Positions 1 through 62,475 of a DNA stretch of 64,000 nucleotides are shown piece after piece. The notes beneath the pieces are model-generated. The model was not told where the DNA came from, ran no database searches, and saw only the letters and a program-made list of their open reading frames with translations. The stretch's first letter is position 1, and each line of letters starts with the position of its first letter. This DNA comes from an uncultured Flavobacteriales bacterium (lineage in GTDB: Bacteria > Bacteroidota > Bacteroidia > Flavobacteriales_D > Crocinitomicaceae). Both the position numbers and the translations under genes were made by a program. Location of the stretch: assembly GCA_903939755.1 (NCBI GenBank), contig CAJAII010000036.1, positions 62,001 through 126,000 on the forward strand, given 5' to 3'.

Positions 1-1266
1 ACGTCTTTTATTAGAACGATTTAGTGTGAATCGTTTGCCCGAAAATAAATTGGAAAGCGCTCTATTTAATAAATTCCAACTAAAAACCCAGGCGGCGCCT
101 ATTAAAATATATAACCTCGAAAATTGCAATTCTTTGGGTAGTAGGGCATATAATCCAAGAATGATAAAAGTGCCAATGAGCACCGCTTTAATTTGTTTGA
201 TAAATTTTATGGGTTCATCGAACGCTCCCCATACTAGGTAATTTAGCGACCAAATCAAATAATACATTGGAATTAATAAATAATAGGCTTCGTTTGGAAA
301 GGTAATATCTCTCATTCTCCACTGATTGGTCAGAGCGAAGAGACCGGAAAGAATGACTGCTGCATTGAATAATTTAGGGGCAAGGAAAGTAATTATACGT
401 TTTGAAATTTCAATACTAGCTCTCAGGTAAATGGCACTATTAATAGCAACTGAGAAGAGGAACGCATTGTTGCCTCGGAAATGTTTTTTTGCAAAAATGA
501 TCATCGCTCGGTAGAATACAAAAACATAATTAACCGAACTTTTTTTAGTGCTTTCTCCTTTATAATGAATGATCGTTGTATCAGGGAAATAAAGGTTTTT
601 GTATCCTGCTTTAATTATGCGATAAGATAAATCAATGTCTTCTCCATACATAAAAAAATCCTCATCCAACAAGCCAATTTCATCCAGTACTTTTTTGCGC
701 ATGCACATAAAAGCGCCACTTAAGATCTCAATTTCATTTTCTTCAAATTCATTTAAATAGCTTAAATGATATCGCCCAAATTTCTTTGATTTTTTAAAAA
801 GAGAAGAAAGTCCAAAAATTTTATAAAATGCTACGATGGGTGTTGGTAATCCTCGCTTTGATTCCGGTAAAAAGTTTCCTTTTCCGTCCACCATTCTAAC
901 TCCGAGTCCACCGATAGTGTCATCTTTATCCATCCGAGAGACCATCTTTGTTAAGGTTTGCTCTTCGATTACGGTATCGGGATTTAACAAAAGCACATAC
1001 TTTCCTTGGCTCAATTTTATTCCTTGATTATTGGCTCTTGAGAAACCAACATTGTCTTTGTTTTCGATTAAATGAACGCCTTGAAATTTATGCTTTAACA
1101 TTTCGATCGATCCATCCGAACTATTATTGTCCACCACAATTATTTCAGTCTTTAACTGTTGACTTGCCTTAATTACTGAATTCAAGCACTGTTCTAGAAA
1201 GTACTCAACGTTGTAATTAACGATAACTATGGAAAGGTCCAAATCAGGAATTCTTTTTATACTCAT
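1..1266 (-). CDS. Family 2 glycosyltransferase, C-terminus cut by window edge
   Basis: The reading frame is open from the ATG at 1266 to the window edge (422 codons, no stop), so the gene is partial. The N-terminus SIVIVNYN, the nucleotide-binding VVDNNSSDGS, LLLNPDT with the DXD-like position, and GEDIDLSYR are the usual GT-A signatures of rhamnosyltransferase-like GT2 enzymes. The last ~130 visible residues contain three or four hydrophobic segments, so it is probably a membrane-bound enzyme transferring a nucleotide sugar to a cell-surface polysaccharide or lipid carrier. Its ATG overlaps the TGA of the upstream RidA gene (ATGA), implying translational coupling. The acceptor and sugar cannot be told from sequence. 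Confidence 0.85.
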   Translation of the reverse strand, partial: MSIKRIPDLDLSIVIVNYNVEYFLEQCLNSVIKASQQLKTEIIVVDNNSSDGSIEMLKHKFQGVHLIENKDNVGFSRANNQGIKLSQGKYVLLLNPDTVIEEQTLTKMVSRMDKDDTIGGLGVRMVDGKGNFLPESKRGLPTPIVAFYKIFGLSSLFKKSKKFGRYHLSYLNEFEENEIEILSGAFMCMRKKVLDEIGLLDEDFFMYGEDIDLSYRIIKAGYKNLYFPDTTIIHYKGESTKKSSVNYVFVFYRAMIIFAKKHFRGNNAFLFSVAINSAIYLRASIEISKRIITFLAPKLFNAAVILSGLFALTNQWRMRDITFPNEAYYLLIPMYYLIWSLNYLVWGAFDEPIKFIKQIKAVLIGTFIILGLYALLPKELQFSRLYILIGAAWVFSWNLLNRALSNLFSGKRFTLNRSNKRR

Positions 1267-1643
1267 TTTACAGCTACACAGGAAATTTCAATCATGGCAT
1301 CCAATGGAAGTCTAGCTATTTCTACTGTTTCTCGTGCTGGTGGCATCGCATCAAAATAGGTGGCATAAACTGCATTCATTTTTTGAAAATCATTGAATTC
1401 AAACATAAAAATAGTGCATTTAACCACATTTTCAAAGGTGAAACCCGCTTCTGCTAAAAGAGATTGTATGTTTTGCATTACTTGGTGGGTAGCCGCTTCA
1501 ATGTTTTCTGTTACTAATTCGCCTGAAACTGGGTTAATGGGTACTTGGCCGCTGATGTATAGGGTGTCATTCACTAGTATTGCTGGTGAATAAGGTCCGA
1601 TCGGTGGTGGCGCACCTGGAATACTGAATGATTTCTTTGTCAT
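1263..1643 (-). CDS. ridA: RidA family enamine/imine deaminase
   Basis: A 126-residue protein of normal RidA (YjgF/YER057c/UK114) length. It has the IGPYS segment near residue 15, YISGQVP, and the signature PPARETVEIARLPLDA followed by IEISCVA; the Arg of PPAR and the Glu of IEI match the catalytic-site positions of the family. RidA hydrolyses reactive enamine/imine intermediates made by PLP enzymes to 2-keto acids in the cytoplasm. It is first in a two-gene unit with the glycosyltransferase, overlapping by 4 nt. That pairing has no obvious metabolic logic and may simply reflect shared transcription. Confidence 0.93.
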   Translation of the reverse strand: MTKKSFSIPGAPPPIGPYSPAILVNDTLYISGQVPINPVSGELVTENIEAATHQVMQNIQSLLAEAGFTFENVVKCTIFMFEFNDFQKMNAVYATYFDAMPPARETVEIARLPLDAMIEISCVAVK

Positions 1644-2490: not shown

Positions 2491-4911
2491 ATGAAATTAT
2501 TTTACTCCCTTTTTTTTCTTCTCGTAACACTAACTTCTTTTTCTCAAAATGGTTTAGTGCGTGGGCATGTATACAACGCTGCCAATAATGAAGCAGTCGC
2601 TTTAGGAAAAATTACCATTATCGAACTACAAAAAGGCGCAATAACAAAGGAAGATGGTTCGTTTGAGATAGTTGGTATTGCACCAGGTATTTATTCTTTT
2701 AAAGCTACATGTCCCGGGTTTAAAGATCAAATAATCAATGAAATTACAGTTACCAATGCTCGCTCTATCGAATTGGATTTTAATTTGGACTTCGTTGTTA
2801 ACGAACAAAAAGAAATCATTGTAAAAGGAAATAGATTTATAAGAAATGTAGAATCCCCCGTTTCATTAAAGACCTTAAATGCTACAGAAATAGAAAGGCT
2901 TCCTGGAGCAAATCGCGATGTAAGTCGTGTAATTGCGGCACTTCCTGGAGTAGCATCTCGTGCCACTTTTAGAAATGATATTATTATTCGAGGTGGTTCG
3001 CCAGGGGAGAATAAATTTTATTTAGACGGAATAGAAGTCCCTAATATCAATCACTTTGCTACGCAGGGAAGTAGTGGTGGTCCGGTAGGCTTGTTAAATG
3101 TGAATTTTATTCGCGAAGTTGATTTTTATGCGGGCGCTTTCCCAGCCAATCGAGCAAATGGGTTGAGTAGTGTGATTGCTTTCAAACAGAAGGAGGGAAA
3201 CAGTGATGGCTTGATTACTAATTTTGCTTTGGGCTCAAGTGATGCTGCTATTACGCTCGACGGACCTTTAGGAAAGAATTCAAATTTCATCTTTTCTGCC
3301 CGAAGATCTTATTTACAATTCCTTTTCGCTGCGCTTAAATTGCCCATTCTGCCTACCTATAATGACTTTCAATTTAAGTATAATTACAAGATTAACAAGA
3401 ATAGCAAAATTAGTGTGATTGGGCTTGGTGCCATCGATGATTTTAGATTAAATACAAGTGCGAATGATAATTTGACAGATTCTTCTCAAATTGAAGCAAA
3501 TAATTACATCCTTGGAAATTTACCGCTGCAACAACAATGGAATTACACGCTAGGTGTTAATTACATGCATTCTAGTAAAAACGGGATTCAAAACATTGTG
3601 GTAAGTAGAAACATGTTGAATAATACAGCATCTCGCTATAAGGATTTTGTAGAAATTCAGGCCAACAAGATATTAGATTATGCTTCTTTTGAAGCGGAAA
3701 ATAAAGTGCGAGTGGAGCATACCTACAAGAAAGATGGTTGGCGTTGGAATGTGGGAGCCGGATATGAATACGCCCGATACTTCAATTCTACTTATAATAA
3801 GATTACCGTTCAGGGTCAACCGGTAACGATTGATTATAAATCAGATCTGTTTTTAAGTAAATACAGCGCGTTTTCTCAACTAAGCAAGGGTTTGTTTAAT
3901 GAAAAATTAAATTTATCTTTTGGCTTACGAGCAGATGGCACGAATTACTCAAAAAACATGTCCAATTTATTAAAGCAATTATCACCTAGTTTCTCTGTGA
4001 ATTTTCGGGTAACTCCAAAAATTGCCATCAATGGAAATATTGCTCGTTACCACCAGCTTCCATCATATACGATACTCGGATACCGCGATCCCCAAGGCGT
4101 ATTGATCAATAAGGCAAATGACTTAAAATATATTCAAGCAGATCACCTTGTTCTTGGTGCGGAATACTTGACCGATATTAGTTCTCGATTTACGGTGGAG
4201 GGTTTCTATAAAAAATACAACTACTATCCTTTTTCTACCAAAGACTCTTTGTGTTTAGCCAACGTGGGCTCTGATTTCGGAATTGTAGGAAATGAAGCGG
4301 TTCGTTCTATATCAATGGGAAGATCTTATGGGTTTGAATTTCTGTATCAACAAAAACTATTTAAAGGGTTTTATGCTGTAATAGCTTATACATTTGTAAA
4401 GTCTGAATTTCAAGATAAAAACCTGAATTATGTCCCAACCGCGTGGGATAGCCGAAACATTGTTTCTTTGACCGGTGGAAAACGATTCAATAAAGGATGG
4501 GAAATTGGCATGCGATGGCTGTTTTCTGGAGGTTCTCCTTACACACCTTATGACGTTGCTACTTCAAGTTTAAAACAAAATTGGGATATAAATGGTATTG
4601 GTTTGTTGGATTATAATAAATTGAACACAATGCGGGAATCAAATTACCATCAATTGAATGTAAGGGTGGATAAAAAATTGTTTTTAGATAAATTCAACTT
4701 GAATTTTTACCTGGACATTCAAAATGCCTACGCTCGTAAAACGATCTTGGCCCCTACATTGATAGTAGTTACGGATGCTACTGGCGCCCCTGTAACTGAT
4801 CCAAATGATCCAACGCGCTACTTGACGAAATACATTGAAAATGCTTCGGGAATTGTTCAGCCAACCATTGGGATAATTATTGAATTTGCCGCTAAAAGAA
4901 AGGTGAATTAA
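2491..4911 (+). CDS. TonB-dependent receptor with carboxypeptidase-like regulatory domain
   Basis: An 806-residue outer-membrane protein. Residues 1-19 form a signal peptide ending in SFSQ. Residues about 22-110 are a carboxypeptidase-regulatory-like beta-sandwich (VRGHVYNAANNEAV, then IAPGIYSFKATCPGF). A plug domain follows (about 125-235, with IIIRGGSPGENKFYLDGIEVP and INHF), and the rest is a beta-barrel ending in the aromatic-rich strand IGIIIEFAAKRKVN. It is not SusC-like: it is too short and no SusD gene follows. It should import a small ligand using TonB energy; the ligand is unknown. Its stop overlaps the stop of the convergent lipoprotein gene through a shared TTAA. Confidence 0.88.
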   Translation: MKLFYSLFFLLVTLTSFSQNGLVRGHVYNAANNEAVALGKITIIELQKGAITKEDGSFEIVGIAPGIYSFKATCPGFKDQIINEITVTNARSIELDFNLDFVVNEQKEIIVKGNRFIRNVESPVSLKTLNATEIERLPGANRDVSRVIAALPGVASRATFRNDIIIRGGSPGENKFYLDGIEVPNINHFATQGSSGGPVGLLNVNFIREVDFYAGAFPANRANGLSSVIAFKQKEGNSDGLITNFALGSSDAAITLDGPLGKNSNFIFSARRSYLQFLFAALKLPILPTYNDFQFKYNYKINKNSKISVIGLGAIDDFRLNTSANDNLTDSSQIEANNYILGNLPLQQQWNYTLGVNYMHSSKNGIQNIVVSRNMLNNTASRYKDFVEIQANKILDYASFEAENKVRVEHTYKKDGWRWNVGAGYEYARYFNSTYNKITVQGQPVTIDYKSDLFLSKYSAFSQLSKGLFNEKLNLSFGLRADGTNYSKNMSNLLKQLSPSFSVNFRVTPKIAINGNIARYHQLPSYTILGYRDPQGVLINKANDLKYIQADHLVLGAEYLTDISSRFTVEGFYKKYNYYPFSTKDSLCLANVGSDFGIVGNEAVRSISMGRSYGFEFLYQQKLFKGFYAVIAYTFVKSEFQDKNLNYVPTAWDSRNIVSLTGGKRFNKGWEIGMRWLFSGGSPYTPYDVATSSLKQNWDINGIGLLDYNKLNTMRESNYHQLNVRVDKKLFLDKFNLNFYLDIQNAYARKTILAPTLIVVTDATGAPVTDPNDPTRYLTKYIENASGIVQPTIGIIIEFAAKRKVN

Positions 4912-7601: not shown

Positions 7602-8705
7602 TTACTTGAAAAAGAAATTTCCTTCGTCATCCATGGTAAAACCAATCTCGGGAAAATCGGTTTGAGTCAATTTTAGTATTTCGTTAAACACACTTTTTTT
7701 CCGATCTAACAAAGGTCCTCCCTCACCAATTTGTCTAATTGGAATTACCTTGCCAGATTTGAACGATCCGTCTCTTCTTAATTGAAGTTGGTAAATAGGA
7801 GCGATGCCACTAATTCCTTTTAGGTTAAAGCTACCATAGGTACAAAAATTACCCATTGAATAAGTGATAAACCTTCCTTTGTAATAATCTACTGCTCGTG
7901 TAACGTGCGGGCCATGGCCTAATACAACATCCGCTCCGGCATCAATTGCCATGTGAGCAAATTTATAGACATCGCCTCTGTTTTCACCCAAGAAAATTTC
8001 TTCCATTCTTGGCACATGACTTTTACTACTTCCTTCGGCGCCGCCGTGAAAGGAAACAATCACAATATCACACATTTTATCCAGCATTTTTACGGTAGAT
8101 TTCAGTAAATCGTAATTGGATAATTTTTGGCAATGCGAATTTGGAGAGAAGCCTGTAAATCCGATTTTTAATCCTTTTACTGTCATGGTGTCCCATGGCG
8201 CAATTTCTAGTCCTCCATGGGCAATATTATTCTTGTTAAGAATAGAACATGTCGCCTTACGCCCTTCTTCACCAAAATCGCCCATGTGATTATTAGCAAC
8301 CGACATTAGATTAAAATGAGCATCTACTAGATGGTCTACTACGTAGGTCGGTTGTCTAAATGCATAACAAACAGAAGGGTCATTACAATTTTTTGGAATA
8401 CCACCCGAATTAAGTACTGTGCCTTCCAGGTTCCCAAAGGTAATGTCACCAAATCTTAAATAATTTTTTACCGAATCCAATAAATTAACGCCTTGAGGTG
8501 GTAATTTAGAATTATTGGGATAATTCGTCCCCATCATAATATCTCCCACGGCGATGAGCGTAATTAGCGAATCATCTTGAAGGTTGGTTCTTTCAAGATT
8601 CACTTTTTTTTCTACAATACTTGGCGTTTTCTTTGTGTTTAATAGAAAATACGCTGCTAGTATTGGGATTAGAGCGATTGAGCCATAGACTACTTTTTTT
8701 TTCAT
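7602..8705 (-). CDS. CapA family (PGA_cap) metallophosphatase-like protein
   Basis: A 367-residue protein with an N-terminal membrane anchor or uncleaved signal (about 7-25) facing the periplasm. Motifs of the CapA/PgsA family are visible: LIAVGDIMMG, the NLEGTV segment, SVANNHMGDFG, VSFHGGAEGSS, VLGHGPHVTRAVDYYKG and YSMGNF. These provide the Asp, Asn and His metal-ligand positions of the calcineurin-like fold. The family includes poly-gamma-glutamate capsule proteins, but no pgsB/C genes are nearby, so its true substrate is unknown. It lies downstream of the terminator of the T9SS gene at 8770, so it should have its own promoter, which was not identified with confidence. Confidence 0.85.
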   Translation of the reverse strand: MKKKVVYGSIALIPILAAYFLLNTKKTPSIVEKKVNLERTNLQDDSLITLIAVGDIMMGTNYPNNSKLPPQGVNLLDSVKNYLRFGDITFGNLEGTVLNSGGIPKNCNDPSVCYAFRQPTYVVDHLVDAHFNLMSVANNHMGDFGEEGRKATCSILNKNNIAHGGLEIAPWDTMTVKGLKIGFTGFSPNSHCQKLSNYDLLKSTVKMLDKMCDIVIVSFHGGAEGSSKSHVPRMEEIFLGENRGDVYKFAHMAIDAGADVVLGHGPHVTRAVDYYKGRFITYSMGNFCTYGSFNLKGISGIAPIYQLQLRRDGSFKSGKVIPIRQIGEGGPLLDRKKSVFNEILKLTQTDFPEIGFTMDDEGNFFFK

Positions 8706-8769: not shown

Positions 8770-9642
8770 TTATTTCACGTATACTCGCTTAGAAACTTTT
8801 CCAGCTTCAAATTGTGCGGATATTGTATAAATTCCTGTATTGATTCCTTCAAATTCGATAGTCGTGTTAATATCAGAAATGTTGATTGATTTAACTACTT
8901 GACCATTGATAGAAACAACTTGCAATAGACCACCAATTAAATCAGGTGTTACATTGATCGTTGCATTATTTAAGGTAGTTTTGATGCTAACTTTATCTTC
9001 TACGTTTACATTTTCTAATCCTACCATTTGACCAGCATTCAGCGCTCCAGAAGGAGTCCCATTAAAAGCAAAATCGTGAATGGTTAATTGGCTAGCAGTT
9101 CCATTGGCAGATAATTGCACCCATCCGTAGTGGGTATTTGCTCCAACTACAAACTTAGCTCCTAAGAATTTATTAGATGCAGCTAAGAATGCGCCTTGTG
9201 AAATAGGAAATGTTCCAGCTCCAGGAGCAGTAATTAATGCATTTATTGCAAGTGCTGAAGAACTAGAACCGCCAAAATTCTGCGCTGCAGATATTGGGTC
9301 ACCTGCGTTAAGAGCAGAAACAGCAAAAGATGAACTGGAAACAGCTCCAATCACTTGATTACCTGCTGGAAAACCAACTGCGCAAGCATCACCAACATAG
9401 GTAAATTGAATACCACTTGTTGATCCAGCGCCAACTAGGTGTTGTACTGAAAATACTAGGTCTGGATTAGCATCGTTGTTAAAATCTAGCATGTACGGAG
9501 CACTTAAACTATCAAGTACAGCGTCAGGGCTAACATCAGTGTATACAATTTGTGCATTTACATTACTACCAGCAATAAGAGCACCAGCAACTGCTGTGTA
9601 TTGCGCTAATTTCGACTGTTTAGATGGTGTAGAAGTTTTCAT
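8770..9642 (-). CDS. Secreted protein with T9SS type A sorting domain
   Basis: About 290 residues starting at the ATG at 9642 (MKTSTPSKQSKLAQY). The Ala/Gly-rich hydrophobic stretch AVAGALIAGSNVNAQ is a signal peptide. The middle (DVSPDAVLDSLSAPYMLDFNNDANPDLVF) resembles the opening of repeat-like surface proteins in this phylum. The last ~75 residues (NVNVEDKVSIKTTLNNAT, then INGQVVKSI, GINTGIYTISAQ and the basic KVSKRVYVK) are a T9SS type A C-terminal signal, so the protein is exported across the outer membrane and the tail removed. No enzymatic motif was seen. A near-consensus -7 box (TATCCTTG, 9646-9653) lies 3 nt from the ATG. Confidence 0.75.
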   Translation of the reverse strand: MKTSTPSKQSKLAQYTAVAGALIAGSNVNAQIVYTDVSPDAVLDSLSAPYMLDFNNDANPDLVFSVQHLVGAGSTSGIQFTYVGDACAVGFPAGNQVIGAVSSSSFAVSALNAGDPISAAQNFGGSSSSALAINALITAPGAGTFPISQGAFLAASNKFLGAKFVVGANTHYGWVQLSANGTASQLTIHDFAFNGTPSGALNAGQMVGLENVNVEDKVSIKTTLNNATINVTPDLIGGLLQVVSINGQVVKSINISDINTTIEFEGINTGIYTISAQFEAGKVSKRVYVK

Positions 9643-9718: not shown

Positions 9719-9893
9719 TTCTCCGCCCCGGCGGAAAAAATCGGCCTTTATATTCTTTGTCCTTTTGTCTTGATACTACGGCAAGCTCAGCACAAGTACA
9801 AAAGAACGAAAAAATCAAGTCTCGATTGACTTGTGTACCGTGCCTCTCGGCTCCGCTCGTTGCACTTTAAGTGAATCGAGCGGAGCCGAGAGC
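9719..9893 (+). repeat. Dispersed palindromic repeat, copy 1
   Basis: This repeat fills most of the 300-nt gap between two genes. In order: a small hairpin CCGCC-cc-GGCGG (9723-9734); a 74-nt block (9753-9826) that differs by one base from 52591-52664 and can itself fold imperfectly (9760-9772 with 9793-9806); then a perfect 16-bp stem, CTCTCGGCTCCGCTCG (9844-9859) with its complement at 9877-9892. No reading frame or transposase is present. Bases 9894-9953 hold nothing else recognised. Confidence 0.85.
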
Positions 9894-9953: not shown

Positions 9954-12461
9954 TTATTGATCAAAATTAATAAAGTTCATTAGGATTTCTGATTGCTCTT
10001 CCGCTTCGGTATTTACACTTTCACTATGAAGAATTAACACGGGTAATGTGGCTTGTGAAGCTATCCAAGTATCAATTTTATCTTGATCGTTTTTTGATTT
10101 GTTTAGTAATTCAAGTGGGAATTCTTTTTCTTTAAAATCACGCTTGTGTAGCCTTTTTAGAGCTTCAATTACCTGGGCATTATCTTCCTCGAGTACAATT
10201 AATTTATAATTTAAATCTACTGGTAATAAAGACAAGCAATGGCAAGGAATATAAATTATCTGATTTCTTTTCGTTTTCAACCAACTTGTGTCTGATGCTA
10301 ATTTCTTTGCATCATCTATCGATTTATTATCATATTCGGAAAGAATTTCAAGTGCCTTGAACCACTTAAACATTTCTTCCATGTTTACGCCGTCAATACT
10401 TGTACAAATTGTGATTTCACCTTGAATGTTATGCTTAAGAAAATTTGATGTTTTTGATGCTAACGCTTCATTTGGCGACCATTTTGTATAAATTTCGTGC
10501 AACCATTTATGCGCTTTTGTTAAGCCCGGTGACAAGCGAATGGCTACTTCAAAAGCATAAGCGGCATCATCGTATTGTTCTTTTTTCATCAATGATTCCC
10601 CCAAATGGTAATGCGCATTCGGCAAATAAAAATCATTGGTAATGGCCAATAAGAATTCTTCGATGGCTTGGTCAATTAAATTCCTCCTAAGGAATGATAC
10701 GCCTAATCCATGATGTGCTTTCCCATTTCCCTCGTCAATGGCAAGTGCACAAATAAATTGCTGTTCTGCCGAAGCATAATTTTTACGTTGGTTATGAATT
10801 TGTGCGATATTGAATGCGACATGGAAATTCGCAGGGTTCTTTTTTTGAACACTTTCTAGTATGGGCAATGCTAGGCGTGGCCGATTAATGGCTAATAAAA
10901 TTAACCCTTCTAAGTATTGCAGGTACATCGGTTCCTCCATATCATTACTACCAAAAGGATCATCGGATTTGAGCTTTTTTTCCTTTTTCTGCTTAAGGTG
11001 TAATTCTTTTAGTTCTTCTAATAAATCTCTTGCTTTTTGGTAGTGTCTTAACGCTAAATAGGTAAATGCTAGCCGTTGGCCATATCGAATAATTTTTGAC
11101 TCCTGAAATATTTTTTCCAATATTTTCAGGGCTTCAACGATGCGACCACCATTGATCATGTTTCTTGATAGGTAGTATAAATTTTCGCGTTTAGATTTTT
11201 CAACTTCCAATAATTTATCGTCGTCAGGCGCATCAATATATCCCATTTCAACAAGTTGCTGAAGGGCTTCAATGGCATCCCAAGGATTTTCTTGTCTGTT
11301 TTTATCGTGCATCCCGGAATCACCGTCAACACTTTCCCAGCTAGGTATTAATTGGGTATTTTTAGTTTCTTCAAAACAGGCGTGTAGCACCTTTCCTTCC
11401 ATATCTTCTCCGATGGGTAGGTTTAAATAATGCAGTAAAGTGGGGGTGATATCGAGGATGCTGGCACCGCTAACTTCAACACCTCCTTTTTTTATTCCTG
11501 GCCCTGCCATGGCAAAAATTCCATAAGGGCTGTGTTCTACCGCCGGACCTGAAGGTTCTCGAGGGATGTATAAAGGCCGCTGATGATCCGAATGAAATCC
11601 ATGGTCTGATACAATCAGAAGTGTTGTTTGCTCATCCATCAATTCTAGTATTCTTCCTAGCATTAGATCGTGAAAACGGTAAGCAGCTTCTACCACTAAA
11701 TTATAGTCGTCAAATTCTTTTTGTTCGATTTCAGGTCTTTTCGGGGGATGGTATCGCATGGCAATATGCGAAAAATGATCAATGGCATCGTGGTAGATGG
11801 CCATGAAATCCCAAGTGGTTTCCTCATGTAAATAAGTAGAAATAGCGTGAACCGTAGCGGCATTTGCCAAGGTTTTTAAAACACTTAAGGTTCTTTGTTC
11901 TTTTCTTAATTCTTTATCAGTATTCAAATTTGGAATAAAAGGCAGTGCCATGCTCAAGGTAATTTCATGCGGATGCACCCGAAATTTTTCGAGAGTTTCT
12001 TCCATTTCTTTAGGATGAACCGATTCTGGAGGAGAAATCCATGGTTCTTCTATTGATTTACTTGCTATCTGAAATAAGTTGGAAACCATTACGCCGTTTA
12101 TCGGTTCAACGGGATTCGTGGGCCACCAAGCGACCACGTTACTTTTATACCCTTCTTGGTTTAATATATTCCAAATTGCTTTTACTCTTCTTGAGGTGGA
12201 AGTAACGGGACGAAGTCTTTCACCATCTGGTGTAGGTTCAATAAATCCTGAAATTCCGTGCTTGTCTGCTCGAACACCCGTTGCAATACTCGTCCACAAC
12301 ATCGGAGAAAGCGGTGGGTCTAGCGTTTTAATTTTTCCATGTACCCCTTTTTCGAGGAAGATCTTCATATTGGGCATTTTCCCTTGTTCTATTAAAGGGA
12401 AAATTACTTTCCAATCTGCGGCATCCCATCCTAAAACTATGACCTTTTGTTTACTTTGCAT
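9954..12461 (-). CDS. Alkaline-phosphatase-superfamily phosphodiesterase fused to TPR repeats
   Basis: An 835-residue predicted cytoplasmic protein with no signal peptide. Residues 1 to about 360 are a type I phosphodiesterase/nucleotide pyrophosphatase-like domain with all metal positions visible: Asp13 (GWDAADW), nucleophile Thr57 (MLWTSIATG), Asp225-x3-His229, Asp286-His287 (VSDHGFHSD) and His310 (EHSPYG). Residues about 420-690 are tetratricopeptide repeats (NPANFHVAFNIAQIH, GNGKAHHGLGVSFLRR, LPNAHYHLGESL). The C-terminal ~140 residues are unassigned. It is the last gene of an overlapping three-gene operon with a 50-residue protein and a sulfotransferase-like protein. The substrate is unknown; a phosphate or sulfate ester is plausible. 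Confidence 0.82.
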   Translation of the reverse strand: MQSKQKVIVLGWDAADWKVIFPLIEQGKMPNMKIFLEKGVHGKIKTLDPPLSPMLWTSIATGVRADKHGISGFIEPTPDGERLRPVTSTSRRVKAIWNILNQEGYKSNVVAWWPTNPVEPINGVMVSNLFQIASKSIEEPWISPPESVHPKEMEETLEKFRVHPHEITLSMALPFIPNLNTDKELRKEQRTLSVLKTLANAATVHAISTYLHEETTWDFMAIYHDAIDHFSHIAMRYHPPKRPEIEQKEFDDYNLVVEAAYRFHDLMLGRILELMDEQTTLLIVSDHGFHSDHQRPLYIPREPSGPAVEHSPYGIFAMAGPGIKKGGVEVSGASILDITPTLLHYLNLPIGEDMEGKVLHACFEETKNTQLIPSWESVDGDSGMHDKNRQENPWDAIEALQQLVEMGYIDAPDDDKLLEVEKSKRENLYYLSRNMINGGRIVEALKILEKIFQESKIIRYGQRLAFTYLALRHYQKARDLLEELKELHLKQKKEKKLKSDDPFGSNDMEEPMYLQYLEGLILLAINRPRLALPILESVQKKNPANFHVAFNIAQIHNQRKNYASAEQQFICALAIDEGNGKAHHGLGVSFLRRNLIDQAIEEFLLAITNDFYLPNAHYHLGESLMKKEQYDDAAYAFEVAIRLSPGLTKAHKWLHEIYTKWSPNEALASKTSNFLKHNIQGEITICTSIDGVNMEEMFKWFKALEILSEYDNKSIDDAKKLASDTSWLKTKRNQIIYIPCHCLSLLPVDLNYKLIVLEEDNAQVIEALKRLHKRDFKEKEFPLELLNKSKNDQDKIDTWIASQATLPVLILHSESVNTEAEEQSEILMNFINFDQ

Positions 12462-12603
12462 TTTTAGGATTTTTCTTCGTGCTTTTCGAATTTTCTATTG
12501 CTTCCCGCCATTTGATTAGTCCAATATGACCAAGGGCAAGAAGTCCCAGACTTCCTTGTGGTGTAGCAATGTATATTTTTTCTTTATCTTTTTTAATTTT
12601 CAT
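12451..12603 (-). CDS. 50-residue conserved-looking small protein in the sulfotransferase operon
   Basis: Starting at the ATG at 12603, this encodes 50 residues with a basic N-terminus (MKIKKDKEK), a central Gly/Leu-rich segment IATPQGSLGLLALGHIGLIKW and a Lys/Asn-rich tail. It overlaps the sulfotransferase-like gene upstream by 11 nt and the phosphodiesterase-TPR gene downstream by 11 nt. Such double overlap is a strong sign that it is really translated. The central stretch is too short and Gly-rich to be a clear membrane span. No family is recognised; it may be an accessory subunit of one neighbour. Confidence 0.65.
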   Translation of the reverse strand: MKIKKDKEKIYIATPQGSLGLLALGHIGLIKWREAIENSKSTKKNPKNAK

Positions 12604-13153
12604 TTTTATTTCTATAAAGTGCTGGATTAATCGAAGGCAGTAAGTCATCTAAATTACAAGGTAAAGATAGAAATTCGATTAGTTTCGTTAATTCAACCGT
12701 AGGTTGATTCATTAAATTGTTATAATCAATGGTAATGAATGGGATGGAGTTACTTGCTAAAAAAGCTTTTGTTTTTTCAATGTGCATGAGGTATATGTTC
12801 TTGAATTTTTCTCGTTCGTCCACTTGGTTTTTTTGAACCATTTTCTCTTGTGATTGCAATACTTCGTTTAAGTCTCTAATCATAAATACAAATCGATACT
12901 TTTCTGATAAATCAATAAAAGTAGGAAGAGGAGCAACAATTTTAACGACTTTATTTCTTGCTTCACGAAGAAATGAATTATTTTTCACGATGCCTTTTAC
13001 GGCCTCCAATTCGAAATATCCTTGCGGATTATTATCATCTTCTTTTCGATTATAATCCGAATGGATGTCTAATCCTGCCCTTTTTAATACTTGCATCATT
13101 AAAGAGGTCCCGGACCTAGGAATACCGGTAACGATCGTAATAACCTGATTCAT
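12593..13153 (-). CDS. Sulfotransferase family protein
   Basis: A 186-residue P-loop protein. GIPRSGTS (10-17) is the 5'-phosphosulfate-binding loop of PAPS-dependent sulfotransferases, followed by MMQVLKRAGLDI and a later RDLNEVLQSQEKM that matches the 3'-phosphate-binding region. It is shorter than typical sulfotransferases and lacks much of the acceptor region, as in the compact bacterial sulfotransferase-like group. It is the promoter-proximal gene of the three-gene operon. Whether it transfers sulfate is inferred from the family; no PAPS-synthesis gene is in the window. Confidence 0.78.
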   Translation of the reverse strand: MNQVITIVTGIPRSGTSLMMQVLKRAGLDIHSDYNRKEDDNNPQGYFELEAVKGIVKNNSFLREARNKVVKIVAPLPTFIDLSEKYRFVFMIRDLNEVLQSQEKMVQKNQVDEREKFKNIYLMHIEKTKAFLASNSIPFITIDYNNLMNQPTVELTKLIEFLSLPCNLDDLLPSINPALYRNKNEN

Positions 13154-13707: not shown

Positions 13708-16035
13708 ATGGTAAAATTTTACATTCTCTCCGTCTTTTTGTGTTTTGTGTTTTTTGCTAAAAGTCAATGCACAACCACGAATGCTACTTCATGTGTTTGC
13801 GCTGATGGTTCTCAAAATTGCTTGTTACTTCCAGATATAACTGCTTCGTGGAAAGGCATTATTAATAATGGTTGGATAGAATATCCCCAAAGTGGTGCAG
13901 GTACCAATTATGCCGGACAAGGACCTGATGATGGTCGTATTCGAGTTACGGGTTCTACCCCCAATATTGGTCACGGAAGTTTTACGGTTCGTGGACAAGA
14001 TGTCAATGGGAAACGCGCTTTTTTATGTGGTAATGATACAATATTTAACGTTCCCGGCACAGGGACTTTTACCTGTCCAAATGGGGCGCAAAATCCAAAT
14101 CAATTATTGATTCAACGTGTTTACAAAAAGGATCTAGGGGTGATGAGTTTTGTGGATACTTGGACTGGAAGTATGACCTATCATCCTTCCCATGGTCATA
14201 ATCATGTCAATGATTGGGCGGTCATGACGCTCCGTATTCAAACGCTTGATCCCAACCCATTAAATTGGCCCATAGTAGGGGAAGGAGCAAAAATTGGATT
14301 TTGTTTAATGGATTATGGTCAATGTGGGACACCTGGATCTACGTATGATGGACATTGTCGTGATGACAATACCGTTTATTTGGGTGGTAACAATCTTTTA
14401 AATGTGAACTTCCCAAATTGGAATTTAGGAGGAGGGAATTATGATTGTTCTGTTGTTGAGCAAGGAATTTCATCTGGTTGGACGGATGTTTACGGAAAAC
14501 ATTTGGACGGAATGTGGATCAATGTTCCGCCAAATACCTGTAATGGAAATTACTACATTGTAATGCAGGTGGATAAAAATAATAATTTTCAAGAAGAAAA
14601 TGAGAATAATAATTACACCGCTGTTCCTGTAACACTGAGTATGCAAAGTCCTGCCAATTCAAATCTTTTACCAACGATTACTTCTAATGGATCGAGTAAT
14701 TTGTGCGCAGGAGGATCTATTAACTTAACTGCAACAGGAGGATCTAGTTTTCTTTGGTCAACTGGAGCAACTACTCAATCTATTGTAGTAAATCAATCTG
14801 GTTCTTATATTTGTACAGTTACCAACTATTGTGGAACGAATTCTTCGTTACCATTTATTGTAAATTCAGTTACGCCTTCCATGGCGAGTGGCCAAGGACT
14901 TACTATTTGTGCAGAGAATGTGGCTAACCTAAGCGCTAGTGGTTCCGGTCAATTAACATGGTATGATGCGCAGGGAATCCAAGTGGCTGTTGGGGGAACA
15001 TACACTACGCCTGTATTAACAACTTCACAAACTTATTATGTCACCAATACACAGTCTTATTCAGATTCGGTGAATGCGGAGCCGCATACAAATGGTATTG
15101 GTGGAGGTGGTTATTCTACGGTTAACCAATACGAGATTTTTAATAGTTATGAATCTTTTACATTGAAATCTGCGAAAGTGTATGCCCTCAATGCGGGTAA
15201 TATTTCGATTGAATTACAAGCTTCTGATGGGTCTATTTTGCAGAGTACAACTGTTAGCGTTCCTTCTGGCGCAAGCCGTGTAAATCTAAATTTTGCTGTT
15301 CCTTTGGATAGCAATTTAAGATTAAAAGCAACCAGTATGCCTAGTGGAGGTTTGTACCGCAACAATAATTCGGCTGTCTATCCTTATGAAATTCCTGGAT
15401 TAGTTTCTATTACAGGATGTTCTGCGGGAGCTTCTTTCTATTGTTATTTCTACGATTGGGAGATTTTTACACCGAATGGAACGTGTGAGAGTGCTTCTTC
15501 TCCAGTTGATGTCATTGTAAATGGCCCATTAAATCCTATGGTTGTTGGGGATACTATTTGCGATGCTGGTTCATTGACACTCAGTGCAAGTGGTTCAGGA
15601 ACAATTAATTGGTACGATTCTAATGGTCTACTTGTCGGTACTGGTAATACTTTTATCACCCCGATTTTGACTAGTTCCCAAATTTATTATGCTCAGGCAG
15701 TTGATGGATCTTGCACCAGTGATACGGTGGCTGTAAATGCTGTCGTTAATCCGTGTGCAGGAATTGTTGACCCACTTATTTTCTTGAACTCCTTTTATGT
15801 GTTCCCAAATCCTACGGAGGGTCATTTTCAACTTCAAATTAATCCTTTCGTTAAAGGTCGCTTGTCATTTACGCTCACTGATATAAATGGCAAATTACTT
15901 TACCGTGAAGCCATTAATGAAATATACGGTCAATCACTAGTGGATGTTGATGCCTCTAATTTGAAAACAGGTTTGTACTTTGTGAACCTAACTTTTGATA
16001 ATAACACGTACACCAAGCGAATAAGTATTGAATAA
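13708..16035 (+). CDS. Secreted lysyl oxidase with Ig-like domains and T9SS type A sorting domain
   Basis: A 775-residue protein: signal peptide (1-19), lysyl oxidase domain (about 40-305), Ig-like repeats (about 325-700) and a type A sorting tail (VFPNPTEGHFQL to YTKRISIE). The oxidase domain keeps the copper-site pattern H-x2-H-x-H-x-H (His159, 162, 164, 166 in YHPSHGHNH), a Lys195 in AKIGFCLMD matching the LTQ-cofactor lysine of animal LOX, and Tyr262 in SGWTDVYG matching its LTQ tyrosine. Such enzymes oxidise peptidyl lysine or amines to aldehydes and H2O2. It would act outside the cell or on its surface. The propeller gene follows through a TAATG overlap. Confidence 0.82.
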   Translation: MVKFYILSVFLCFVFFAKSQCTTTNATSCVCADGSQNCLLLPDITASWKGIINNGWIEYPQSGAGTNYAGQGPDDGRIRVTGSTPNIGHGSFTVRGQDVNGKRAFLCGNDTIFNVPGTGTFTCPNGAQNPNQLLIQRVYKKDLGVMSFVDTWTGSMTYHPSHGHNHVNDWAVMTLRIQTLDPNPLNWPIVGEGAKIGFCLMDYGQCGTPGSTYDGHCRDDNTVYLGGNNLLNVNFPNWNLGGGNYDCSVVEQGISSGWTDVYGKHLDGMWINVPPNTCNGNYYIVMQVDKNNNFQEENENNNYTAVPVTLSMQSPANSNLLPTITSNGSSNLCAGGSINLTATGGSSFLWSTGATTQSIVVNQSGSYICTVTNYCGTNSSLPFIVNSVTPSMASGQGLTICAENVANLSASGSGQLTWYDAQGIQVAVGGTYTTPVLTTSQTYYVTNTQSYSDSVNAEPHTNGIGGGGYSTVNQYEIFNSYESFTLKSAKVYALNAGNISIELQASDGSILQSTTVSVPSGASRVNLNFAVPLDSNLRLKATSMPSGGLYRNNNSAVYPYEIPGLVSITGCSAGASFYCYFYDWEIFTPNGTCESASSPVDVIVNGPLNPMVVGDTICDAGSLTLSASGSGTINWYDSNGLLVGTGNTFITPILTSSQIYYAQAVDGSCTSDTVAVNAVVNPCAGIVDPLIFLNSFYVFPNPTEGHFQLQINPFVKGRLSFTLTDINGKLLYREAINEIYGQSLVDVDASNLKTGLYFVNLTFDNNTYTKRISIE

Positions 16036-17273
16036 TGGTGTTTCCTGTAAGGCTTGCTCTTTCGTTTGTTTTATCTCTAGTAAGTGTTCTTTGTTATTCG
16101 CAATTGTCCTTTCAAGTGTACAACACATCAAATTCTGCTTTGCCATTCAATACGGTTCGTTGTTTGAAAATGGACACTATTCAACAACTCATTTGGGCAG
16201 GGACTGATAACGGCTTGGCAAGTTTTGATGGAACAACCTGGACAGTCTACAATTCTAGTAATTCTGCCATGACGGACAATGCTATTCGCTCGCTTCAATT
16301 AGATGGCTTGGGTAAGCTTTGGGTAGGAACGACTTACGGAGGCTTGTTTTCTTTTGACGGCTCAAATTGGGTAAATTACACCAATTTTAATAGTGGATTA
16401 CAAGATAATTATATTCGCGCGATTGAATTCGACACAGAAGCTAATATGTGGTTAGCAACTACCGAAGGTATCAGCTTATTTAATGGGATTTCTTGGCAGC
16501 AATGGAACACTTCGAATAGCAGTATGATGACCAATAATGTAACGTCAATTGCCATGGGAAAAGATGGGGAAAAATACTTCGGTACTATAAATGGAGGAGT
16601 CGTATATTTCGACCAAGCGAATAATTTAAGCGTGTTTACGATTGCTAATGCTGGCCTTCCTGATAATTCTTCACGTTCCATCGCAGTGGATTCGTTGGGA
16701 AATCCATGGTTTGCTTCCCCAGCAGGTGGACTTTTTTTAGACAATGCCTTCGGAGGACCTTGGACTAATTTTAATGTCTCTAATTCAATGTTGCCAAGTA
16801 ACGGACTGACTTCTGTCGCAATTAGTCAAGATCAAACGATATTTATAGGATCCGAACAAAATGGCTTGATCATTAAATATGAGAATGATTGGTTCAATTT
16901 TGACCTTGGAAATTCCGGGTTGCCAGAGTCTCATTTATTATCCTTGGCGGTTGAGGATAATACTACTTTATGGTTAGGGACTTACAACCAAGGCTTAGTG
17001 AAAATGGTGGGTAATTATGCCGAAATTACTAATCAAATTATGTCGAATAAACTCATTGTTTATCCGAATCCAAGCCAAGGAGTTTTACACGTCGATATGG
17101 GCGAATTAAATGCTGTAGATTACCAGTTATTCGATTCTTTTGGGAGAGAAATCGGTAATGGAAGTGGCATCGATAGTGAATTTTCTATCTCCATTGAACA
17201 TCTTGAAAACGGGTACTATTTTATCCATTTTTCTAGTGAAATCGCCCCAATAAAATTTGAAAAGATAAACTAA
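16035..17273 (+). CDS. Secreted two-component-regulator-type propeller protein with T9SS type A domain
   Basis: A 412-residue protein with a signal peptide (about 1-22) and six to eight repeats of the form WxGTxxGLxxFDGxxWTxYxxxNS, each ~40 residues. These are the two-component-regulator propeller repeats, here without any kinase part, so it is a stand-alone secreted beta-propeller. The C-terminus (LIVYPNPSQGVLHV, then LENGYYFIHF) is a T9SS type A signal. Its ATG overlaps the TAA of the lysyl oxidase gene (TAATG), implying coupled translation and possibly related surface function. No catalytic motif was seen. Confidence 0.85.
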   Translation: MVFPVRLALSFVLSLVSVLCYSQLSFQVYNTSNSALPFNTVRCLKMDTIQQLIWAGTDNGLASFDGTTWTVYNSSNSAMTDNAIRSLQLDGLGKLWVGTTYGGLFSFDGSNWVNYTNFNSGLQDNYIRAIEFDTEANMWLATTEGISLFNGISWQQWNTSNSSMMTNNVTSIAMGKDGEKYFGTINGGVVYFDQANNLSVFTIANAGLPDNSSRSIAVDSLGNPWFASPAGGLFLDNAFGGPWTNFNVSNSMLPSNGLTSVAISQDQTIFIGSEQNGLIIKYENDWFNFDLGNSGLPESHLLSLAVEDNTTLWLGTYNQGLVKMVGNYAEITNQIMSNKLIVYPNPSQGVLHVDMGELNAVDYQLFDSFGREIGNGSGIDSEFSISIEHLENGYYFIHFSSEIAPIKFEKIN

Positions 17274-52557: not shown

Positions 52558-52725
52558 CCTCCGCCCCGGCGGAAAAAATAGGACGCTGTTTTCTTTGTCC
52601 TTTTGTCTTGATAATACGGCAAGCTCAGCACAAGTACAAAAGAACGAAAAAATCAAGTCTCGATGGAAGCCGGGCCTCTCGACTCCGCTCGATGCCTTTT
52701 AAGTGAATCGAGCGGAGCCGAGAGA
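52558..52725 (+). repeat. Dispersed palindromic repeat, copy 2
   Basis: Same order and orientation as copy 1: hairpin CCGCC-cc-GGCGG (52561-52572), the 74-nt block (52591-52664, one difference from 9753-9826), then a 17-nt arm CTCTCGACTCCGCTCGA (52676-52692) and its complement (52708-52724) with one mismatch. It sits between the 82-residue protein gene and selD and has no reading frame of its own. Confidence 0.85.
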
Positions 52726-62345: not shown

Positions 62346-62475
62346 GTCCGCCTAGGCGGACATTCCTCCTCCGCACATGCGGAGCGGAACGCTCGGCTAG
62401 CTTTCATTTAGCTTATCGAGCGCATCTCGACTCCGCTCGATGTGCTCTTGTTAGTGAATCGAGCGGAGTCGAGAG
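62346..62475 (+). repeat. Dispersed palindromic repeat, copy 3 (composite)
   Basis: Three palindromes in the same orientation as the other copies: TCCGCCTAGGCGGA (62347-62360), CTCCGC-ACAT-GCGGAG (62369-62384) and a perfect 16-bp stem TCTCGACTCCGCTCGA (62425-62440) with its complement at 62459-62474. The 74-nt block of copies 1 and 2 is absent. It lies in the 387-nt gap between lpdA and the Fur-family gene. Confidence 0.8.

Follow-up and report, generated by a model that had tools for sequence, protein, structure and literature searches.

Protein sulfation in bacteria has, to our knowledge, been documented in very few cases. In the raxX-raxSTAB locus of Xanthomonas, the gene of RaxST, a sulfotransferase that uses 3'-phosphoadenosine 5'-phosphosulfate (PAPS), lies beside that of an exported client with an N-terminal leader, and the RaxX precursor is sulfated before leader removal and secretion (PMC6637879). 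RaxX has a 60-residue precursor with a double-glycine leader and is exported by type I secretion. A gene set that likewise places a PAPS-type sulfotransferase (ST) gene beside an exported, leader-bearing protein is described here from a 64,000-nt stretch of DNA of an uncultured Flavobacteriales bacterium (contig CAJAII010000036.1, positions 62,001 to 126,000; hereafter the window), part of a 2.9-Mb draft genome. It differs from RaxST–RaxX in that its clients, of some 290 residues and upwards, combine a Sec-type leader with a tail typical of the type IX secretion system (T9SS), and in adding a small protein and a scaffold that combines a phosphodiesterase (PDE) with tetratricopeptide repeats (TPRs). 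Because leader type and secretion route differ, the module is no member of the RaxST–RaxX system. No raxA or raxB type I secretion genes are among the four annotated window neighbours, and the leader of the window client has no GG site and ends in NAQ. RaxST is nonetheless a working precedent for sulfation before secretion. We put at about one half the probability that the four parts form a dedicated cytoplasmic modification complex together with its client, a leader-tagged precursor that would be sulfated before export. The module and its link to the client are well supported; the chemistry is what we infer.

Three of the genes overlap on the minus strand. The standalone ST gene (P0003, 186 aa, 12593–13153) shares 11 nt (12593–12603) with the small open reading frame (ORF; P0002, 50 aa, 12451–12603), which in turn shares 11 nt (12451–12461) with the gene of an AlkP/ENPP-like PDE–TPR–pseudo-sulfotransferase (P0001, 835 aa, 9954–12461). 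These overlaps had been noted in a first-pass annotation made from the letters alone, and the ORF coordinates confirm them exactly. The reading of the three genes as one unit, here found to be conserved, also held, although a fourth member, the gene of a secreted beta-protein that is the proposed client (P0004, 8770–9642, minus strand), had been missed. None of the three overlapping genes encodes a recognisable signal peptide, in agreement with the annotation, as judged from N-termini read by eye with no predictor used. The ST matches PF13469 (Sulfotransfer_3; 40.7 bits, cut-off 27) and the PDE matches PF01663 (Phosphodiest; 96.1 bits, cut-off 23) as well as TPRs; the small ORF has no Pfam match up to E=1, and NCBIfam gave only sub-threshold matches for the three ORFs, mostly to TPR models. 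Between the PDE and client genes lie a terminator-like hairpin (9816–9833, minus strand) and a 24-nt inverted repeat (9844–9892), so that the client may have its own promoter. The trio had not been recognised as a named system, and no description of this gene set was found in the open-access literature.

PAPS sulfotransferases are characterised by a 5'-phosphosulfate P-loop, a 3'-phosphate motif with an invariant Ser, and a His or Glu base between them (PMC6637879). In the window ST, the P-loop reads GIPRSGTS, with the positively charged residue of PAPS sulfotransferases; GYFE and the 3'-phosphate motif R93-x7-S101 are also present, and the earlier assignment of this protein to the PAPS-binding type is thus borne out at the level of motifs. 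E48, the Glu of NNPxGYxE, shows no variation across 17 rows (two of these being one and the same protein) and may represent the His/Glu-type base between the two PAPS motifs. Among the standalone STs, the P-loop is kept in 46/47, the remaining one being truncated, and both the R and the S/T of R-x7-S are kept in 47/47; in fused STs, described below, the motifs are intact in 12/12. The nearest solved structures to the ST profile are SULT1 enzymes and tyrosylprotein sulfotransferases (TPSTs), with E values of about 2e-4 to 3e-3. Judged by these motifs and those of the AlkP domain, both catalytic domains look active.

The ST occurs in two states. Loci (L) and genomes (G) carry labels of our own, G000 being the genome of the window, whose order is called the first order. 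In G064, a genome of a second order found by the ST search, PDE, TPR and ST are joined in one 853-residue protein. When the ST state was read at 60 fetched first-order loci and the window (61 loci), 12 loci had a PDE-TPR protein whose C-terminal ST keeps both P-loop and R-x7-S intact, and showed no ST gene besides it; at two of them (L095, L101) the upstream side is cut by a contig end. Where the C-terminal ST domain has decayed, with loss of the P-loop pattern, the locus carries a separate ST gene in 48/48 cases (Fisher p 7e-13, a value inflated by related loci). Among these 48 decayed domains the R of R-x7-S is kept in seven and the S/T in four, with both in one (L099). L083 combines a nearly intact fused domain with a separate ST gene, and intermediate P-loop sequences are seen there (GLPKTGS), at L089 (GLPKSGA) and at L099 (GPARSGM). 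A profile of the 45 most degenerate domains, which left out L083, L089 and both L099 domains, matched the 12 fused STs at E=3.9e-36 and the standalone STs at E=1.7e-21. Because of the two-state pattern and these profile matches, residues 668–835 of P0001 (9957–10460, minus strand), which have lost the P-loop and R-x7-S and had been left as an unassigned domain, can be identified on sequence grounds as a decayed sulfotransferase; the idea of a novel fold was rejected on the profile comparison. The domain is absent from the listed whole-model fold matches, which cover AlkP and TPR, and this absence says nothing about its fold. On a tree of 61 PDE-TPR parts, for which 10 of the 12 fused proteins were long enough, the fused and split states require three changes between them, and well supported branches make two of these unavoidable, so splitting and decay of the fused ST probably happened more than once. 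The result is a natural experiment in which the presence of a separate copy goes with decay of the catalytic domain in the fused protein. In another lineage (G051), a lone, partly degenerate ST-like gene (L020, 8475–9041, plus strand) has no PDE nearby and lies next to what is presumably a lipoyl synthase gene.

The N-terminal 400 residues of P0001 (11262–12461, minus strand) carry the AlkP/ENPP-like catalytic domain. The complete AlkP active site ascribed to it at first reading is upheld: D13, S52, D225, D286, H287 and H310 are invariant in 28/28 aligned rows, window included, and H229 is nearly so; the ligand roles among them are assumed from the AlkP superfamily. S52 lies in an invariant S-P-M-L-W and aligns with the nucleophile position of phosphonoacetate hydrolase, occupied by Thr in 3szy and by Ala in 3t02. 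Sulfatases of the AlkP superfamily carry the formylglycine motif C/S-x-P-x-R (CxPxR), and the window PDE has S-P-M-L-W at that position. Because of this invariant Ser and the lack of CxPxR, the domain looks, from its sequence, like an ENPP-type phosphodiesterase rather than a sulfatase. A sulfatase undoing the product of the ST was therefore rejected, and the earlier suggestion that the locus both makes and removes a sulfate ester is not supported. The predicted structure of a relative (L087) is ENPP-like as well: ENPP1/3 and other ENPP entries, several of them nucleotide complexes, top its fold search, with ENPP3 (6c01) at Z 27.7 and a root-mean-square deviation of 2.6 over 279 residues. The module PDE shares with the ENPP or type I phosphodiesterases (PF01663) the fold, the Ser/Thr nucleophile position and the presumed metal ligands. 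It differs from them in having no visible signal peptide, in using Ser for Thr, and in its fusion to TPRs and an ST domain. The TPR region (approximately residues 410–665; 10467–11234, minus strand) resembles the TPRs of O-GlcNAc transferase and SPINDLY in the fold search. These enzymes carry a protein-modifying catalytic domain on a TPR superhelix; the module is alike in joining such a superhelix to catalytic domains, which are unrelated to theirs (AlkP, sulfotransferase).

The small protein, with the core GSLGLLALGxxGxxxWR, was surveyed at 64 PDE genes (window included) that encode at least 700 aa and have at least 120 nt of upstream sequence. An ORF of its family lies immediately upstream of, or is fused to, 52/64 of them, and in 50/52 measured pairs its stop codon falls inside the start region of the PDE gene, with overlaps of 4 to 89 nt. 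First-order members have about 45 to 60 residues; those of the second order are often longer. The substitution test comprised 14 pairs. In nine pairs of relatives, partly non-independent, the ratio of non-synonymous to synonymous rates (dN/dS) is 0 to 0.18 with dS of 0.22 to 1.73; one pair with dS 0.08 has zero non-synonymous changes, and in four, among them the window against L052, a single non-synonymous change stands without any synonymous one. Compared with its three nearest relatives, the window ORF is identical in DNA to two and differs from the third by one non-synonymous change and no synonymous one, these sequences being too close for such a test. A chance ORF was rejected on family conservation, dN/dS and the position at 52/64 PDE genes, and on this sequence evidence the 50-residue protein, which the first-pass annotation had listed as a tiny protein with a Gly/Leu-rich core, is a genuine family. 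The small ORF also precedes fused PDE-TPR-ST proteins and is therefore a companion of the PDE, not a by-product of the split. In L087 (3–2624, minus strand), it is naturally fused to the N-terminus of the PDE.

A weak resemblance of the small-protein family to C-terminal sorting signals was also seen: PFE_CTERM matched 14/51 members (best E 3e-4) and PEP-CTERM 4/51, below cut-off in the one case with a score (15.6 against 24), and neither matched the small protein of the window. Unlike PEP-CTERM signals, it is a stand-alone ORF. Exosortase (PF09721) matched in 6/16 module genomes and 3/10 others, G287 being counted among the latter, and gave no match in G000; an exosortase link was rejected since exosortases do not track the module.

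The fourth member emerged from the clustering of neighbours, in which a secreted protein family, the proposed client, is present at 54/61 loci. Counted over 67 PDE genes or pieces of at least 300 aa, the client lies directly downstream on the same strand in 57. The ten exceptions comprise three contig ends (L087, L076, L068), one locus with a single ORF in between (L071), two with the client upstream (L092, L094), three with a longer version divergently adjacent (L097, L098, L103) and one with none (L107). In G298, the ST, the small ORF with the PDE, and the client lie on three different contigs, and all are retained. The beta-protein family itself is wider than the module, with a match in 129/399 genomes of the first order. 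A full-length match of at least 148 bits, a cut-off picked after the list was seen and applied to a profile that includes the leader, was obtained in 53/56 ST-positive and 0/343 ST-negative genomes. As to the remaining three, the client copy of G629 is cut by a contig end with its leader present, the contig of G676 ends past the PDE, and the ST match of G400 is spurious, being weak (E 1.3e-4) and to a different ORF. Across 54 pairs, PDE and client distances correlate with r 0.907. The predicted structure of the client is that of a beta-protein, and its C-terminal domain has cargo domains of the T9SS among its fold matches (8glk_D, TMt 0.79; 8qb1_A, 0.71; E 0.04–0.05). The window client scores below both type A sorting-domain models (21.3 against 27; 19 against 23), and 3/4 scanned second-order relatives exceed the NCBIfam cut-off of 23 (28.1, 25.7, 30.2). 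The client is probably a T9SS cargo.

The leader of the client is an unusual, weakly hydrophobic signal peptide with the motif LxxYxAxA; in the window it spans 31 aa (KLAQYTAVAGALIAG...NAQ; 9550–9642, minus strand). The homologues examined from genomes without the enzymes have ordinary signal peptides. Forty-eight module-associated clients were compared with 29 other homologues, which include module-genome paralogues with ordinary signal peptides (e.g. L148, L182), at positions conserved to at least 75% in the first group. The positions that differ most are all in the leader (Y15, A17, A19), followed by V218, G281, L12 (leader), L52 and K285. The leader Tyr has a frequency of 0.92 in module-associated clients against 0.14 in the others, and the median best 12-residue hydrophobicity score is 1.58 against 2.33 (p=5e-13). 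A leader profile matched at E<=1e-3 in 13/14 module genomes, partly in-sample, with G064 failing; in 14 hand-picked module-free genomes no match fell below E 0.05 (best 0.069), and matches at E<=1e-3 coincide with client-family matches. A loose leader pattern found 83/131 family ORFs, missed L101, and also matched ordinary-looking signal peptides, both module-free (L150, L151, L166, L196) and linked (L093). One client ORF of 212 aa (L263) has the leader motif followed by a lipobox-like Cys (KKMTKYSVLAGAAITMIAAC), which suggests that the leader also serves lipoproteins.

The module extends beyond close relatives, as the co-occurrence check proposed at first reading now indicates. Near relatives were found in three genomes by a P0003 search of genome contigs; the nearest named relatives of the window are metagenome-assembled genomes labelled Flavobacteriia, Crocinitomicaceae and Chryseobacterium gleum. 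The ST matched in 56/399 first-order genomes, 47 of the 56 from one family, and among 19 genomes searched, PDE-TPR (E<=1e-10) was present in 4/4 with the module and 0/15 others. Among 296 genomes drawn broadly from the phylum, with three candidates scored per genome, PDE-TPR was found in two (G000, G064), the same two that hold the module ST; two further ST matches concern other genes. In plasmids, tblastn searches with P0001 and P0006 gave matches in 54 and 58 records. None reached 80% query coverage, and those among the matches listed (40 and 15) were all haloarchaeal; P0003 had no plasmid match, P0004 one weak match in Hymenobacter, and viral contigs gave none.

In the second order, that of G064, the fused protein matched at E<=1e-20 in 35/198 genomes, a few matches being partial, and the 38 loci read, with 36 complete PDE genes, hold mostly fused phosphodiesterase-TPR-ST copies. 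The P-loop fits the strict pattern in 31/36. Of the five that do not, four adjoin a copy whose ST is intact, and for the fifth (L258) such a copy lies on another contig of the same genome; in the tandem PDE pair of L294, both copies keep the P-loop. A small ORF lies upstream of 23/36. A client scoring above 50 bits is present at the locus for 19/36, with a leader match in 17 and a directly downstream position in 14; diverged leader-bearing proteins occur at some loci (L258, L262, L292, L293). The strict leader pattern was found in 33/45 client-family ORFs and 14/200 other ORFs, one of which (L293, 486 aa) is probably a true client. A looser pattern discriminates little (38/45 against 63/200). 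The first-order models of the small protein and PDE include one second-order row (L107). Module-type STs of about 375–390 aa, with an extra C-terminal domain that we take to be a methyltransferase, were seen at L260 (about 292–1464, plus strand) and L292 (about 3339–4490, plus strand) and in ORFs of L268 and L269.

The reading as a modification complex builds on the four parts, their co-occurrence, the pattern of fusion and decay, the link between leader and module, and the catalytic motifs; complex formation, leader recognition, sulfation of the client and the part given to the PDE are proposed from them. The TPR-containing PDE protein, with its TPRs and ENPP-like phosphodiesterase, would act as the scaffold. 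The ST, using PAPS, would act from within it in some lineages of the first order and in most second-order copies read, where it is fused, and as a separate protein in the lineage of the window, where the fused copy may persist as a structural domain after its decay. As an accessory subunit, the complex would include the translationally coupled small protein. The complex may recognise the weakly hydrophobic LxxYxAxA signal peptide of the neighbouring beta-protein, which would hold the precursor in the cytoplasm long enough for modification. The unexported precursor would then be sulfated, probably on an O-acceptor such as Tyr, Ser or Thr, and exported, probably by the T9SS; the PDE domain would most likely clear or turn over the nucleotide product. 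The client is favoured as the substrate because the module is tied tightly to a precursor feature of an exported protein. Further support comes from the joining of PDE, TPR and ST in one ORF and the complementarity of fused and separate ST, from the adjacency of client and PDE and the joint retention of the parts on separate contigs in G298, and from the finding of the module again in a second order by models derived almost entirely from the first.

Several observations weigh against this reading. No acceptor residue stands out in the mature client, and the leader Tyr would leave with the removed signal peptide. In the window, the terminator-like hairpin separates the PDE from the client; G064 has no recognised client, and the loci of 17/36 second-order PDE genes hold no client exceeding 50 bits, in some cases because the contig ends. 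Ordinary signal peptides occur in module-adjacent family members (the middle genes of L093 and L100) and in members elsewhere in module genomes (e.g. L148, L172, L182), and three of the 48 module-associated clients (L173, L177, L178) have no PDE near them and were assigned to that group with their leaders already known. The correlation of PDE and client distances may reflect species history, and the paralogue test of the same pairing agreed in 4/6. The small protein is missing at 12/64 PDE genes, ten of them one clade and the others L104 and one of the two PDEs of L099, and the model of the L087 fusion fails to place it confidently (block-mean pLDDT 41–72).

Other explanations share part of this evidence. 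The module may instead make a sulfated or phosphorylated small molecule, lipid or glycan that is attached to or carried by the leader-type protein. Sulfotransferases and ENPP-type enzymes often act on small molecules, the nearest solved relatives of the ST profile include SULT1 and not only TPSTs, and the PDE fold is closest to ENPP1/3, several entries holding nucleotides. We consider this unlikely, given that the strongest module-specific client positions lie in the leader, a feature of a cytoplasmic precursor, and that no glycosyltransferase, ligase or transporter was recognised among the neighbour clusters, whose names were read by eye from sequences. Somewhat less likely still is a role mainly as chaperone or gate in the export of slow, weakly hydrophobic leaders, with the precursor bound by the TPRs and small protein and the catalytic domains acting as nucleotide sensors or regulators. 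It would account for a leader less hydrophobic than the ordinary signal peptides of homologues, for TPR matches to secretion-chaperone models (below cut-offs), and for a small protein that stays with the PDE where ST and client have moved away. The small protein, however, is dispensable in one clade, and the retention of the ST motifs (46/47 standalone, 12/12 fused), with a separate ST in 48/48 decayed cases, points to a required ST catalysis.

Modification of the leader itself appears improbable. Here the conserved Tyr, among the most module-specific positions (0.92 against 0.14), would receive a sulfate or another modification in the cytoplasm that sets the timing or route of export, and would then be removed; some clients have Phe in its place, and recognition without modification explains the conservation equally well. 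Least credible is a vertically inherited accident of neighbourhood in which ST, PDE and client have unrelated roles. Close relatives do inflate the counts, 47 of the 56 ST-positive first-order genomes coming from one family, but presence is patchy with joint absence, the unlinked parts are co-retained in G298, the set recurs in another order, and two to three fused/split changes are matched by the state of the ST. Sulfation of the client by a dedicated complex stays the preferred reading. If it is true, certain exported proteins of bacteria are marked while still in the cytoplasm, and a signal peptide can serve as the tag that singles them out for modification. All the enzyme domains come from known superfamilies; new would be the micro-protein family, the signal-peptide motif and the tripartite enzyme with dedicated clients. 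More tentatively, the module may stand for a new class of pre-export modification, in which LxxYxAxA-marked surface proteins of Bacteroidota would be sulfated in the cytoplasm by a TPR-scaffolded PDE-ST with its 50-residue subunit before type IX secretion.

Other elements surround the module. Divergent beside it in the window (13708–17273) lie genes of a lysyl-oxidase-like T9SS protein and a Reg_prop propeller T9SS protein, whose clusters recur at 16 and 18 of the 61 loci and which are possible functional neighbours. Downstream of the client, a PGA_cap-type capsule synthesis protein is encoded (7602–8705), with its cluster at 4/61 loci. A regulator gene, presumably Crp-like, neighbours the module at 29/61 first-order loci, often just upstream of the ST, and is absent beside the copy of the window. 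The inverted repeat at 9844–9892 belongs to a palindromic element (CTCTCGGCTCCGCTCG and its reverse complement, with at most two mismatches) that recurs in the window at 52676–52724 and 62424–62475 and had no match in 100 shuffles.

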